From Luteolibacter flavescens (GTDB lineage: Bacteria; Verrucomicrobiota; Verrucomicrobiia; Verrucomicrobiales; Akkermansiaceae), in contig NZ_JAPDDS010000013.1 in assembly GCF_025950085.1 (NCBI RefSeq), positions 1 through 64,000 on the forward strand: a stretch of 64,000 bases of DNA, given 5' to 3'. The position numbers were made by a program, and so were the translations under genes. Within the stretch, counting starts at the first letter, position 1. Each line of letters starts with the position of its first letter. This document shows, piece after piece, positions 157 through 52,157 of the stretch. Below the pieces are notes generated by a model. That model ran no database searches. It was not told the origin of the DNA and saw only the letters and a program-made list of their open reading frames with translations.

Positions 157-2844
157 TCAGGGGATGATGATGTGGAAGCGCAGGAAGCCTCTCGACTGGT
201 CACCACCGAAGCTGCTGTTGATCTTGCCGATCAGGAGAGCCGGTTGATCAGTCGTCACCTCGACGTCGTTCACGGCACTCGACCATGATTGCAGATTGCG
301 GGAGACTTGCAGGACGACGAAGGCATAGGCATTCGGGTCGCGGACACCGCTGAGCTCGATTCCACCGCCGGGAGGCACGGACGAGGTGATCGTCGGGATG
401 CTGCCGGGGTTTTCCGGATCCGAGCCGAAGGCGAACTCTTCCGCGTTCGAGAATCCATCCTGATCCGGATCCGCATCGGGACCAGAGATCACCGGATTGG
501 TGTTTGCCGGAGCGGTGAATTCCTCGTTTCTCCACTGCGTGTAGGTCTTGAGACCGGAGCCCAGACCGCCGGGATTGTTGATGTCATCGTCAACAACGTC
601 CGGTATTCCGTCGCCATCGGTGTCGGTGTCATCGTCCACCATGCCGTCTCCGTCGGTGTCGAGATCGCCGTTGCCAGCGGTATCGATGTCGTTGCCACCG
701 GCGTTGTCGCTGTTCGGGTCGATGTAGTTCGGGATGCCGTCACCATCGGTATCGATCGGCGTCGAGCCACCTGCATCACCACGGCCGCCTGGCAGGCCGT
801 CCACGGACAGGATGATGCCGTCGCGATCCGGATCCGGACCGTCACCGATGCCATCGTTGTTGGAATCGGTAGCGCCGAGTCCGCTCTCAATGAGGTCGGA
901 GATGGTGTCGTTGTCGCTGTCGAGATCCAGGAAGTTCGGAGCGCCATCACCGTCGGTATCCGTCACGGGAAGGACAGTGCCACCTTCATCCGGGTCCACG
1001 GAGTCCACGATGCCATCGCCATCGGCGTCCGGCGTGCTGTCACCGCTGGAGTCTTGCAGGCCGTCGCCATTCGCATCGGTGCCACCGGCTTCGATCACGT
1101 CATTGATGCCGTCGTTGTCGGAATCAAGGTCGCGGAAATTCGGGATGCCATCGCCATCCAGATCACCATTGCCTTCCACCGAGTCCGGGATGCCGTCACC
1201 GTCGGAGTCACCATCGGCAATGTCCGGAACGCCGTCACCATCGGTATCCACCTGGCCGGAGCCTTCATCACCGTTAGGAATGCCGTCGCCGTCGTTGTCG
1301 CCGGCAGCATTCGGCAGGCCGCCGAAGACACCCGGCTGGATGTCCGCCACGTTTGGAATACCGTCGCGATCCGAGTCCGCGCTGGCATCGATCCGGCCGT
1401 CGCCATTGGTGTCGAGGGCAGCGAACGGCGTGCCGACGATGTCGGGCGTGCCGTCGTTGTTGCTGTCGGTATCGTAGGCGTTCGGCGTTCCGTCGTTGTC
1501 CGAATCAGGGATTGGACCGGTTGAGCCAGGTGCATCGCCGAAACCGACGAAGCCATCGACCACATCGTCAATGCCGTCTCCATCCGAGTCGCCGGTCCGG
1601 AAGACGCCGTTCTCATCGGCAGTCGTCACGAAGCCGGACTCCACGATGTCGCTCACGCCATCATTGTCGGAATCGAGGTCGAGGTAGTTCTTCACCCCGT
1701 CGCCATCGGTATCGGCGATGACCAGTGCCACGCCCTTGGTTCCGCCCAGAACATTGTCATTGGGATCGACCGAGTCCACGATGCCATCGCCGTCTTCATC
1801 GGGATTGGCGTCGCCACTGGGATCCTGGCGTCCGTCGCCATTGGCGTCTTTGCCACCGGCTTCGATCACGTCATTGATCCCGTCGTTGTCGCTGTCGAGA
1901 TCGAGGTAATCCGGGACACCGTCGCCATCGGTGTCACCACCGGGGGCTGCATTTGCGATTTCGATCGCATCGGGGATGCCGTCGCCATCGCTATCCCCAT
2001 CCCGACCGGCATAGAGACCGTCACCGTCCGGATCGTAGCCTTGCGAAGCCTGGGCCTTCCCGATCGCGATGTCGCCGCTCACCGCAGTGAGAATGCCGAG
2101 TTGAGCTGCAGTGAGATTGATCTTGATCGCCGTCGTCGTGGTGGTGAAGCCATCAAACGCATTTCCAACGGTCGCCGTCTCGTTGAGCATGATGGTGACG
2201 CCGGCAAGCGCGCCGCCATTAATGACAAGGCCGGTATTCGCCGGGACATTCGTGAGGTCGATCGAGGACAGATCGACTGTTGCCCCGAGCAACTTGATCT
2301 TCAGTCCGGCCAATGAAACAGTGGAAGTGGACGTGAATGATCCTGGCCGGCCTGCGATGGTGACGGCTGTCGTGACTGCCGGGACCTCGAGGCTGATCAG
2401 CGGGTCCGTCCCGAAAAGTCCCAGAACCTCTCCCACACCCAAGTTAAGGTTGGTCACACCGGACGTTGCCTTGGTCGTCTTCGAGCCCGACGAACCGTCG
2501 ATGGTCGAGGAAACATTGGTACTGAAGGTTCCGTCGGACGCGAGCAGGGAAAGAACTCCCGGCAAACCCACATCCAGGTTAAGGAGTCCGGGTGAGGTGG
2601 TGTTGTAGGCAGCGGGCGCAGAGCCCGTGGCATGGCCTACATTTCCAGAATTGGCAGTGAGCAGGCTCAGCGTTGAGAGGGAGATATTCGCACCGGTGCC
2701 GGTGCTAGTTCCTTTCGACACTGCCGCTCCGGCAGGCAATTCGGCGCCGTGGACAATTTGCCAGGCGAACAGCGTTATCAGACAAGCAGACCGGGACGAT
2801 AAGGGAGCAAGCTTCCTTAGTTGGCTCATCTCTTTGGGGTTCAT
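157..2844 (-). CDS. Secreted thrombospondin type 3 repeat calcium-binding protein
   Basis: An 895-aa secreted protein of unknown specific role. The N-terminus has a charged start and a hydrophobic segment (SACLITLFAWQIVHGAELPA) that looks like a signal peptide. Residues about 40-265 are Ser/Thr/Gly-rich and beta-like. Residues about 268-790 are dense DxDxDGxxD repeats (for example DTDGDGVPD, DSDNDGIND), the Ca2+-binding pattern of thrombospondin type 3 repeats. The last 80 residues carry a VLQVSRNLQSW segment that resembles the C-terminal module of other secreted proteins in this window. A start further upstream would be TTG; ATG at 2844 (MNPKEMSQL) or 2829 fits a signal peptide better. A blast-type comparison would probably give only repeat-driven hits, so function stays open. 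Adhesion or matrix structure is an inference. Confidence 0.85.
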   Translation of the reverse strand: MNPKEMSQLRKLAPLSSRSACLITLFAWQIVHGAELPAGAAVSKGTSTGTGANISLSTLSLLTANSGNVGHATGSAPAAYNTTSPGLLNLDVGLPGVLSLLASDGTFSTNVSSTIDGSSGSKTTKATSGVTNLNLGVGEVLGLFGTDPLISLEVPAVTTAVTIAGRPGSFTSTSTVSLAGLKIKLLGATVDLSSIDLTNVPANTGLVINGGALAGVTIMLNETATVGNAFDGFTTTTTAIKINLTAAQLGILTAVSGDIAIGKAQASQGYDPDGDGLYAGRDGDSDGDGIPDAIEIANAAPGGDTDGDGVPDYLDLDSDNDGINDVIEAGGKDANGDGRQDPSGDANPDEDGDGIVDSVDPNDNVLGGTKGVALVIADTDGDGVKNYLDLDSDNDGVSDIVESGFVTTADENGVFRTGDSDGDGIDDVVDGFVGFGDAPGSTGPIPDSDNDGTPNAYDTDSNNDGTPDIVGTPFAALDTNGDGRIDASADSDRDGIPNVADIQPGVFGGLPNAAGDNDGDGIPNGDEGSGQVDTDGDGVPDIADGDSDGDGIPDSVEGNGDLDGDGIPNFRDLDSDNDGINDVIEAGGTDANGDGLQDSSGDSTPDADGDGIVDSVDPDEGGTVLPVTDTDGDGAPNFLDLDSDNDTISDLIESGLGATDSNNDGIGDGPDPDRDGIILSVDGLPGGRGDAGGSTPIDTDGDGIPNYIDPNSDNAGGNDIDTAGNGDLDTDGDGMVDDDTDTDGDGIPDVVDDDINNPGGLGSGLKTYTQWRNEEFTAPANTNPVISGPDADPDQDGFSNAEEFAFGSDPENPGSIPTITSSVPPGGGIELSGVRDPNAYAFVVLQVSRNLQSWSSAVNDVEVTTDQPALLIGKINSSFGGDQSRGFLRFHIIIP

Positions 2845-3336
2845 AACCGGGTGGGAGTTCAGGTTCAAATTACCAATTTATTTTAAAAGTCACCAGAGGG
2901 CGAATTTCAGGCGCGACTATAAATGCGTAAAAACCGACATTCCCAACTCAATGTAAGATCTGGACGAGCTAAATATTTATTACCCGATAACCAAAAAGTT
3001 CAGCCTCACAGAAGGGTTTTCGTGCCAAGCAACGTGTACAAACACCTTGGAATCGTGCATATCGCCAACACCAACCCCGTGAATAAATTTATTCACAGCC
3101 GATAACACCCCGACGGTTATTCACAAAATATCGCCATCTTATTCCCAACCCGTTCACACACAAAGCCCCTAACAACCCGCTCATTCCGATCTGTTAGGCG
3201 ACATTATCCGAAGTGAAGAAACGGATGTCCGCCAAATGAAACAGGGCCCGGGACTGATCAAAGTCCTCGAGCCCTGTGAATAACTCCCCTCGTGCGCCGC
3301 GGGGGGAAAATCAGCCGTTAACCCGTTTTGCGATGC
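2845..3336. other. Non-coding region with DnaA-box-like 9-mers (oriC-like)
   Basis: No convincing gene lies in these 492 bp, which are clearly more AT-rich than the surroundings (for example AAATATTTATTA near 2971). The DnaA box consensus TTATNCACA occurs exactly three times as TTATTCACA: 3089-3097 (+), 3117-3125 (+) and 3275-3283 (-). Two 8/9 matches lie at 3078-3086 (-) and 3139-3147 (+). An 18-bp perfect palindrome, GTGAATAAATTTATTCAC, spans 3079-3096, and an inverted repeat CCTAACA/TGTTAGG spans 3168-3198. The hairpin ACAGGGC/GCCCTGT at 3241-3277 may end the rimO transcript. dnaA is not in the window, so an origin is only a hypothesis. The promoter of the 157-2844 gene should also lie here. 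Confidence 0.45.
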
Positions 3337-4734
3337 TTATCGAGCGGCCACCAGATCATAGCCACGCCAGTCACCGATGGTGACATCGGCGAAACTGCCG
3401 ACCGGGATATTCTCATCGACGTGCACGGAGCCATCGATTTCCGGCGCATCCCACTCGGTGCGGCCCACGCCCTTTTCCTCGACGAGCACGCGGACCTTCT
3501 TGCCCACCTGCTCCTGGTTCACCTCGGCGGCCACCTTCTGCAGCTCTGCCATCGCGCGGCTCCAGCGACCCTTTCGGGTCATGTGGTGGAGCTGGCCGGT
3601 CATCTTGTAGGCAGGCGTGCCTTCTTCCTTCGAATATTGGAACACACCTGCCCGCTCGAAGCGGAACTCACGGATAAACTCCAGCAGCTCCTGGAAGTCC
3701 TCCTCGGTCTCGCCGGGGAAACCTACGATGAATGTAGTACGAATGCCGATGCCCGGGATGCCCGCGCGCATGCGGCGCAGCAGGTCGCGGATGTAGTCGC
3801 CGTTCGTCTTGCGCTTCATCGCCGTCAGCATGCGGTCGGAAATGTGCTGCAGCGGGATATCGACATACTTCGCCACCTTGTCGCACTCGGCGATGGTGCG
3901 GATGAGTTCGTCGGACCAGTGCGCCGGGTGGGTGTAGAGGAGGCGAATCCAGAATTCGCCTTCGATCTTGTTCACCTCGCGGAGCAGCGTCGCGAGCGAT
4001 TCGCCGCGGGTGGAGTCCACCGGGGAATTCGGGTTCGGGCGCTGGCCCTCCCACTTGTCCATGCCGAAGTAGGTGGTGTCCTGGGAGATCAGGTTGATCT
4101 CCTTCACACCGGCCTTCACGAGCGCTTCCACCTCGCGGACCACGCTTTCCTGCGTGCGCGAACGGTGCATGCCGCGGATCTTCGGGATGATGCAGAAGGT
4201 GCAGGTGTGATTGCAGCCCTCGGCGATCTTCACGTAGGCGAAGTGCTCCGGCGTCAGGCGGAAGCGCGGCGTGACGTAGTCCGGCACATACTGCGGCTTC
4301 AGCGTTACATAGTCGCGCGGGTCCTCCGTGGCGGAGTTCGCCTCCTTTGGCGCGGGCGCAGGCTGCTTGCCGACGAGATTCTCGATGATCGGAGCGACCT
4401 TCGTGATCTGGTCGAGACCGATGAAGGCGTCCACTTCCGGCATGATGCCCGGCAGGTCCTTCGCGAAGCGCTGCGAAAGGCAGCCCGCCACGATGATCTT
4501 CTGCCGCTCGCGGTCCGGGTCATCCTTGCGGGCATTCACCGCTCCGAAGATCGCATCGATCGACTCCTGCTTCGCCATGTCGATGAAGGAGCAGGTATTC
4601 ACGATCAGCACGTCAGCCAGATCCGCCTCGGACGTGAGCGACATGCCGGCTTCCGCGAGGTGACCCATCATGACTTCGGAGTCGATGAGGTTCTTCGCGC
4701 AGCCAAGTGAGATGAGACCAACAGTGGTGGACAT
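3337..4734 (-). CDS. rimO: Ribosomal protein S12 methylthiotransferase RimO
   Basis: A radical-SAM enzyme that adds a methylthio group to the conserved Asp of ribosomal protein S12 in the cytoplasm. It is 465 aa, near the family length. The N-terminal methylthiotransferase domain starts VGLISLGCAKNLIDSE and has the further cluster cysteines in VNTCSF and AGCLSQR. The radical-SAM motif CxxxCxxC is present as CNHTCTFC (residues about 172-179). The C-terminal TRAM domain includes VLVEEKGVGRTEWDAPEIDG. An in-frame 31-residue extension upstream (to 4827) is low-complexity and not conserved in the family, so ATG at 4734 (MSTTVGLISLGC) is chosen. No clear Shine-Dalgarno is visible. Confidence 0.95.
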   Translation of the reverse strand: MSTTVGLISLGCAKNLIDSEVMMGHLAEAGMSLTSEADLADVLIVNTCSFIDMAKQESIDAIFGAVNARKDDPDRERQKIIVAGCLSQRFAKDLPGIMPEVDAFIGLDQITKVAPIIENLVGKQPAPAPKEANSATEDPRDYVTLKPQYVPDYVTPRFRLTPEHFAYVKIAEGCNHTCTFCIIPKIRGMHRSRTQESVVREVEALVKAGVKEINLISQDTTYFGMDKWEGQRPNPNSPVDSTRGESLATLLREVNKIEGEFWIRLLYTHPAHWSDELIRTIAECDKVAKYVDIPLQHISDRMLTAMKRKTNGDYIRDLLRRMRAGIPGIGIRTTFIVGFPGETEEDFQELLEFIREFRFERAGVFQYSKEEGTPAYKMTGQLHHMTRKGRWSRAMAELQKVAAEVNQEQVGKKVRVLVEEKGVGRTEWDAPEIDGSVHVDENIPVGSFADVTIGDWRGYDLVAAR

Positions 4735-52075: not shown

Positions 52076-52157
52076 GCCGGGATGGCGGAATTGGTAGACG
52101 CACCAGATTTAGGTTCTGGCGGAGAGATCTGTGTGGGTTCGAGTCCCACTTCCGGCA
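52076..52157 (+). tRNA. tRNA-Leu (anticodon UAG)
   Basis: A complete class II tRNA. The acceptor stem GCCGGGA (52076-52082) pairs with TTCCGGC (52150-52156) with one G-T pair, plus discriminator A at 52157. D-arm GGCGGAATTGGTAGACGC, anticodon stem CCAGA/TCTGG with loop TTTAGGT (anticodon UAG, reading CUA/CUN), a variable arm (CGGAGAGATCTG) and T-arm GTGGG-TTCGAGT-CCCAC are all visible. CCA is not encoded. A T6 run follows at 52161-52166, likely the terminator. Confidence 0.96.

Follow-up and report, generated by a model that had tools for sequence, protein, structure and literature searches.

Off-origin DnaA sites have been studied extensively in E. coli. They have been reported in a few other bacteria, to judge from the excerpted text of two papers (PMC4585315, PMC10950094). 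In E. coli the relative distances of datA and of the DARS loci from oriC are conserved, as an extract of the first states (PMC4585315), and an IHF site matters at datA, as an extract of the second states (PMC10950094). DARS1 and DARS2 each comprise, in the excerpted description, a pair of oppositely oriented boxes and a further box on one strand (PMC8682772). The clusters of DnaA boxes in Bacillus subtilis and Streptomyces coelicolor appear in extracts of the literature as datA-like, repressing untimely initiation (PMC4585315, PMC10950094). Spacing matters too: a partial text of one E. coli study gives a preference of DnaA for paired boxes with a gap of 2 or 3 bp, the nrdA promoter included, and a double box in 15 of 16 DnaA-bound regions (PMC11317965). 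For the Verrucomicrobiota, no title on off-origin DnaA sites or on oriC stood among the matches listed by a search that covered few subscription journals and in which queries for ‘datA’ also matched ‘data’.

The cluster considered here was noticed in a stretch of 64,000 nucleotides from Luteolibacter flavescens, analysed as a whole and called the window below. The window opens at the first base of contig C13 (161,805 bp), so that the cluster has just 3 kb of DNA on its left. The boxes occupy a gap between two genes read on the same strand:

157-2844, minus strand: gene for an Asp/Gly-rich repeat protein; its start at 2844 is an ATG conserved among relatives
2845-3336: gap between rimO and the repeat-protein gene, 47% GC over 2869-3336
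2845-3002, minus strand: DNA directly upstream of the repeat-protein gene, conserved in part in genomes G009 and G007
3078-3086, minus strand: 8/9 DnaA-box-like site TTATTCACG (box scan, at most one mismatch)
3079-3096: 18-bp perfect palindrome GTGAATAAATTTATTCAC, formed from boxes 3078-3086 and 3089-3097
3089-3097, plus strand: exact DnaA-box consensus TTATTCACA (exact TTATNCACA scan)
3117-3125, plus strand: exact DnaA-box consensus TTATTCACA, 10-mer GTTATTCACA (exact scan)
3139-3147, plus strand: 8/9 DnaA-box-like site TTATTCCCA, 22 bp after box 3117-3125
3241-3277, minus strand: predicted strong hairpin 3' of rimO, terminator-like, with a weak T tract
3275-3283, minus strand: exact DnaA-box consensus TTATTCACA, 10-mer GTTATTCACA (exact scan)
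3337-4731, minus strand: rimO (NCBIfam TIGR01125, above cut-off)

Everything that an earlier note on this DNA had placed within 210 bp (three exact 9-mers, two 8/9 matches and the 18-bp palindrome) was located, the five boxes spanning 206 bp from 3078 to 3283. The boxes of the palindrome are divergent: their 5' ends point inward across a 2-bp gap, with starts 11 bp apart. Samples of the contig run at 62-65% GC, against which the gap is AT-rich, as the note had it. Its remark that one box touches the rimO terminator hairpin is borne out by an overlap of 3 bases between box 3275-3283 and the foot of the predicted structure; a terminator scan did not include this hairpin among the sites it gave. 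The palindrome GTGAATAAATTTATTCAC, read on the minus strand, received a terminator-like score too, at the chance rate (1 found, 0.7 expected). The note was right as well that no dnaA lies nearby, the genome's single match being at C12:63,101. As for the flanking genes, rimO has its relatives in Akkermansiaceae/Verrucomicrobiaceae, the best named isolate being Haloferula sp. BvORR071 at 91% identity. The repeat protein looks thrombospondin-type-3-like by eye; a Pfam search gave no match, and two NCBIfam matches, one of them a thrombospondin-3 repeat protein, fell far under their cut-offs.

The cluster is real and non-random, and local composition is no explanation for it. Three exact TTATNCACA sites stand in the window where 0.24 are expected, which agrees with the note's estimate of far fewer than one, and none of 100 shuffles reaches three. 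If one mismatch is allowed, the count for the entire window (11 sites) equals the chance expectation of 11.0, but five of the 11 fall in the cluster. When 5000 first-order Markov sequences were drawn from the gap itself, 76 held one exact site, a single sequence held two and none held three; none held five sites at up to one mismatch. The whole genome, a 5.9-Mb draft in 71 contigs, contains 22 exact TTATNCACA sites against 13 for the reversed pattern, and 18 of the 22 read TTATTCACA. With three of these 22 the cluster is the densest exact one in the genome: a scan of the kind that the note had proposed found equal density nowhere else, no other 200-bp stretch holding three.

Is the word read by DnaA in this genus? 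Its pairing bears on the question. Across 17 genomes, same-strand pairs with a 2-bp gap (up to two mismatches) number 61 against 3 for the reversed-pattern control, and pairs with a 6-bp gap 14 against 1; for the 11 genus genomes the figures are 44 against 2 and 4 against 1. This comparison of gaps is fairer than a count of partner offsets around 63 exact sites (14 same-strand partners at -11), whose bias comes from the many loci chosen for having clusters. Of the 11 genus genomes, 8 share one 2-bp-gap pair, GTATCCACAAATTATT(C/A)ACA, which precedes a conserved coding start. The L. flavescens copy, GTATCCACAAATTATTCACA at C18:90,312-90,331, lies upstream of nrdB followed by nrdA, these genes having been identified in this genome only. 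The excess of 2-bp-gap pairs and the nrdB-nrdA double box together make it very probable that DnaA reads the word. The exact preference of this DnaA is less certain, because the product of the single dnaA gene (48% identity to E. coli DnaA, 338 residues, into the helix-turn-helix) has RDHGTV for the RDHTTV of E. coli, which we take to be the DnaA recognition motif, with Gly in place of Thr. The same doubt follows from the boxes at the likely oriC of the genus, described below, which are mostly unlike TTATNCACA.

Some other occurrences of the word deserve mention in their own right. The nrdB double box is followed by a partly conserved motif, here ATACCACATGTGGTA. A second tandem array, three boxes at 11-bp steps, lies at C12:138,989-139,074 upstream of a gene for a 3-keto-disaccharide hydrolase, and one of its 20-mers recurs at C7:92,079 of G007. 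In G003, four exact and three near boxes (C4:143,643-143,852) lie about 490 bp upstream of dnaB, with a short ORF between.

Set beside the described systems, the window cluster resembles each in part. It shares with the clusters of B. subtilis and S. coelicolor the placing of several boxes in one non-origin region; those clusters, in the extracts at hand, lie near oriC and were shown to act, whereas this one occurs in one genome only, on a draft contig, and is known from sequence alone. Like E. coli datA it is an off-origin locus with several DnaA boxes, but datA adjoins tRNA-Gly genes, while the sole tRNA gene of the window is tRNA-Leu at 52,076, and the position of the cluster is unconserved. 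An opposed box pair with a further box on one strand recalls the partial description of DARS1 and DARS2. In the E. coli sequence (NC_000913.3), however, their opposed boxes converge, with starts 14 bp apart and the third box at 12 bp; in the cluster the boxes diverge (11 bp) and the third lies 28 bp on. Orientation and spacing thus rule out a DARS core here. The E. coli nrdA double box, as excerpted, belongs to the same box family, and it has its counterpart in this genome upstream of nrdB-nrdA; the cluster differs in having no same-strand pair at a gap of 2-3 bp. With a 2-bp gap and up to two mismatches there is none anywhere on C13, the genome's six such pairs being on C1, C12 and C18; with a 3-bp gap there is none among the window sites at up to one mismatch per box. 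In E. coli nothing predicts DnaA binding better than a double box, present in 15 of 16 bound regions, so the boxes of the cluster may be weak or unbound single boxes, and the missing same-strand double box is the strongest point against a function.

Comparison among relatives suggests that the cluster is young. A true rimO orthologue (at least 86% identity) is present in 11 of 18 genus genomes, L. flavescens included, the other seven having a match of 30-34% only. Downstream of rimO, within 700 bp, none of the ten congeneric orthologues has a box at up to one mismatch; L. flavescens has five. None of 39 verrucomicrobial rimO loci with downstream DNA has an exact box within 1 kb, and nine have a single one-mismatch word; this set excludes L047 and L048 (rimO cut off), L049 (Armatimonadetes) and L050-L086 (other phyla), while L028 has no downstream DNA and L020 and L027 have less than 1 kb. 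The order of rimO and the repeat-protein gene is common to G007 and G009, which also share part of the proximal upstream DNA, with no boxes in the gap. A DNA search with the whole gap returned three weak matches among relatives (G009, G007 and G057), the first two falling upstream of the orthologous repeat-protein gene. Because the boxes are absent from the orthologous gaps of congeners, the cluster was probably gained recently, in this lineage; the locus being unconserved, there is no sign of selection on it.

The conserved upstream DNA was considered as a carrier of the boxes and set aside: 2845-3002 has no DnaA box at up to one mismatch, and it does not overlap 3078-3283. Within it, the stretch 2972-3002, AAATATTTATTACCCGATAACCAAAAAGTTC, is conserved in three genomes and is a possible promoter or operator.

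The earlier note allowed that the cluster might be the replication origin. Coarse GC skew along C13, which covers the right side only as the cluster lies by the contig end, is negative in nine of nine samples, two of them near zero; at finer scale 27 of 31 windows within the 64 kb are negative. To the right of an origin the opposite sign would be expected, which argues against oriC at this place. Two single-contig relatives point elsewhere. In G002, a congener, the skew turns from negative to positive between about 2.38 and 2.66 Mb (weakly positive at 2.38 Mb, weakly negative at 2.415-2.49 Mb, positive at 2.665 Mb), and a parS-like site at 2.417 Mb sits inside this broad switch; in G010 the minus-to-plus switch is noisy, falling between 2.66 and 3.62 Mb. 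The pattern TGTTCCACGTGGAACA, presumably parS, was searched with one mismatch allowed, the reversed control matching one place each in G000 (L. flavescens itself), G002 and G008. Two such sites, 0.8-1.7 kb apart, occur in 10 of 11 genus genomes, and one in G005; the pairs are at 2.4165/2.4174 Mb in G002 and 3.0397/3.0406 Mb in G010. The L. flavescens pair, with one mismatch in each site, begins at C2:214,144 and 214,978 and ends at 214,993, just upstream of and inside mnmG (C2:214,227-216,119); these are the genome's only two parS-like sites, and none is close to the cluster. The 16S genes of G002 (0.78 and 1.61 Mb) are on the minus strand and those of G010 (3.80 and 5.57 Mb) on the plus strand, so that they run away from the parS pole, in agreement with an origin there.

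At 5-7.5 kb from parS, a non-coding array of boxes aligns in eight genomes (the alignment being anchored on the boxes). The L. flavescens array lies at about 207.2-208.6 kb of C2, 6.5 kb from the parS-like pair, near the end of a pyruvate-dehydrogenase E2 gene (best NCBIfam match 441 bits, cut-off 445; the E1 beta gene, also near, matches above its cut-off). In six of the eight genomes two box-like words (up to one mismatch), one of them TTGTTCACA, stand 60-61 bp apart, a pair that was not found in G008 or G004 at up to one mismatch. An exact TTATNCACA is absent from the stretch in seven of the eight, L. flavescens included, while G004 has two. The parS pair, the skew of the relatives, the 16S strands and the conserved array together make this array, by parS/mnmG and the pyruvate-dehydrogenase genes, the likely chromosomal oriC; on C2 itself the skew is noisy, close to zero or weakly positive to either side of the presumed origin, and is no proof alone. 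Two observations had been named in the earlier note as telling against its reading. A skew minimum elsewhere is seen near parS in the two single-contig relatives, though not cleanly in this draft genome; a denser cluster of DnaA boxes elsewhere was not found, because the C2 array has no exact box. An origin at the window cluster is nevertheless rejected on the skew, the position of parS and the lack of conservation, and the cluster is very probably off the origin. Being away from oriC, as a datA/DBC-type cluster should be, therefore depends for this locus on the origin that we infer.

A second locus has a more regular build. It consists of a minus box, about 220-245 bp, a plus box, about 95-115 bp and another minus box; in most copies the plus box is preceded by another whose start is 11 bp away, the two forming a double box. 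The L. flavescens copy is:

C1:476,430-476,792: single-copy element with fixed box spacing

A strict pattern finds this element once each in 13 of 97 genomes, L. flavescens included, where the reversed control finds it in 0 of 97. The carriers are nine of the 18 genus genomes and four genomes from three other genera of the same family. All 13 copies were aligned and their boxes tabulated, and a seven-copy alignment includes G016, which the strict pattern misses. In the four genomes examined the element lies upstream of a DUF7133/HEAT/cytochrome-c gene, and in two it is near a glutamine-amidotransferase gene. It was itself considered as an origin, as the coarse skew of G000 and G050 changes sign around it. 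The switch there is plus-to-minus, of terminus type (in G050 with stray signs), and at 1-kb scale neither genome shows a sharp switch at the element. The element's distance from the plus-to-minus switch is at least 0.5 Mb in G002 and at least 0.8 Mb in G010, and the opposite switch is more distant still; its distance to the oriC candidate is 1.995 Mb in G002 and 2.04 Mb in G010. The direction of the switch and these distances led to its rejection as origin, 16S strands and parS favouring the other pole. The window cluster is not a copy of the element, since the spacings differ. Of the two, it is the element that makes the better candidate for a datA/DARS-like locus shared within Akkermansiaceae.

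How, then, is the cluster to be explained? The account we favor, with about as much belief as doubt, is a species-specific, off-origin cluster of DnaA boxes, gained between rimO and the repeat-protein gene, that would hold DnaA or adjust a neighboring gene. DnaA would bind the consensus 9-mers at 3078-3147 and 3275; the locus would thereby act as a minor titration site that takes up a few DnaA molecules, and bound DnaA may incidentally hinder transcription through the gap. Binding, titration and any effect on a gene are what we infer from the boxes. The titration site proposed in the earlier note is compatible with the data and is our preferred mechanism, the boxes being its evidence; promoter control is the main rival, and another protein binding the palindrome comes third. 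The promoter reading holds that DnaA at 3078-3147 represses or activates the repeat-protein gene (start 2844) in this species only. The boxes stand some 235-300 bp upstream of the gene start, and a sigma-70-like site on the minus strand (3231-3203) would read across them, though such sites are at chance level (1 found, 0.7 expected). The note's DnaA-regulated promoter is possible. Against it, the orthologues of the gene in G007 and G009 have retained similar DNA just upstream and their gap is free of boxes, a double box such as E. coli uses in regulation is missing from the cluster, and a surface-type repeat protein is, to our knowledge, not a usual DnaA target. We think this reading unlikely.

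A dimeric regulator other than DnaA, with the palindrome GTGAATAAATTTATTCAC and its neighbors as operators and the likeness to DnaA boxes a coincidence, is rather more doubtful. An 18-bp perfect palindrome suits a dimeric repressor, as does a second divergent pair with a 2-bp gap in G010, and the cluster lacks the tandem double box characteristic of DnaA; three further boxes of the cluster are not palindromic, however, and the same 9-mer occurs genus-wide in DnaA-type tandem pairs. No better placed is a neutral origin, by which a functionless cluster arose by chance in a fast-changing, AT-rich gap. The box part of the gap is unconserved, the cluster occurs in one genome only and near matches across the whole window are at chance level; against this stand the strong excess over local composition and the rarity of exact sites, 22 in 5.9 Mb. 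That the cluster is oriC we regard as very improbable. It is the densest exact box cluster of the genome, in an AT-rich gap (47% GC), and the C2 candidate has no exact box, but every coarse sample to its right has negative skew, the parS-like pair is on C2, parS falls near the minus-to-plus switch of both G002 and G010, the 16S genes are directed away from the parS pole, an array of mostly weaker boxes is conserved 5-7.5 kb from parS, and rimO is box-free downstream in all ten congeneric orthologues. Clustered boxes are known from plasmid origins, and an integrated or former plasmid or phage might have left one here; the ORFs of the first 9 kb, read by eye, include no replication or mobility gene, and rimO and the repeat-protein gene are also adjacent in two relatives, which leaves this idea barely credible.

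The favored account, a recent off-origin cluster that would hold DnaA, can be fitted into a wider picture, which we offer tentatively and doubt more than we believe. In Akkermansiaceae the best boxes may lie off the origin, with mostly degenerate boxes at the inferred oriC; the single-copy element, far from oriC and in or towards the terminus half, may be a datA/DARS-like control locus; and the window cluster may be a recent, species-specific extra sink. The cluster is of moderate interest in itself and more useful through the loci to which it led. For this group of bacteria the lesson is that counts of exact DnaA boxes can mislead on the position of the origin. A real cluster in one species, together with a conserved single-copy element elsewhere, raises the question whether titration of DnaA is needed generally, at a place that can drift freely.
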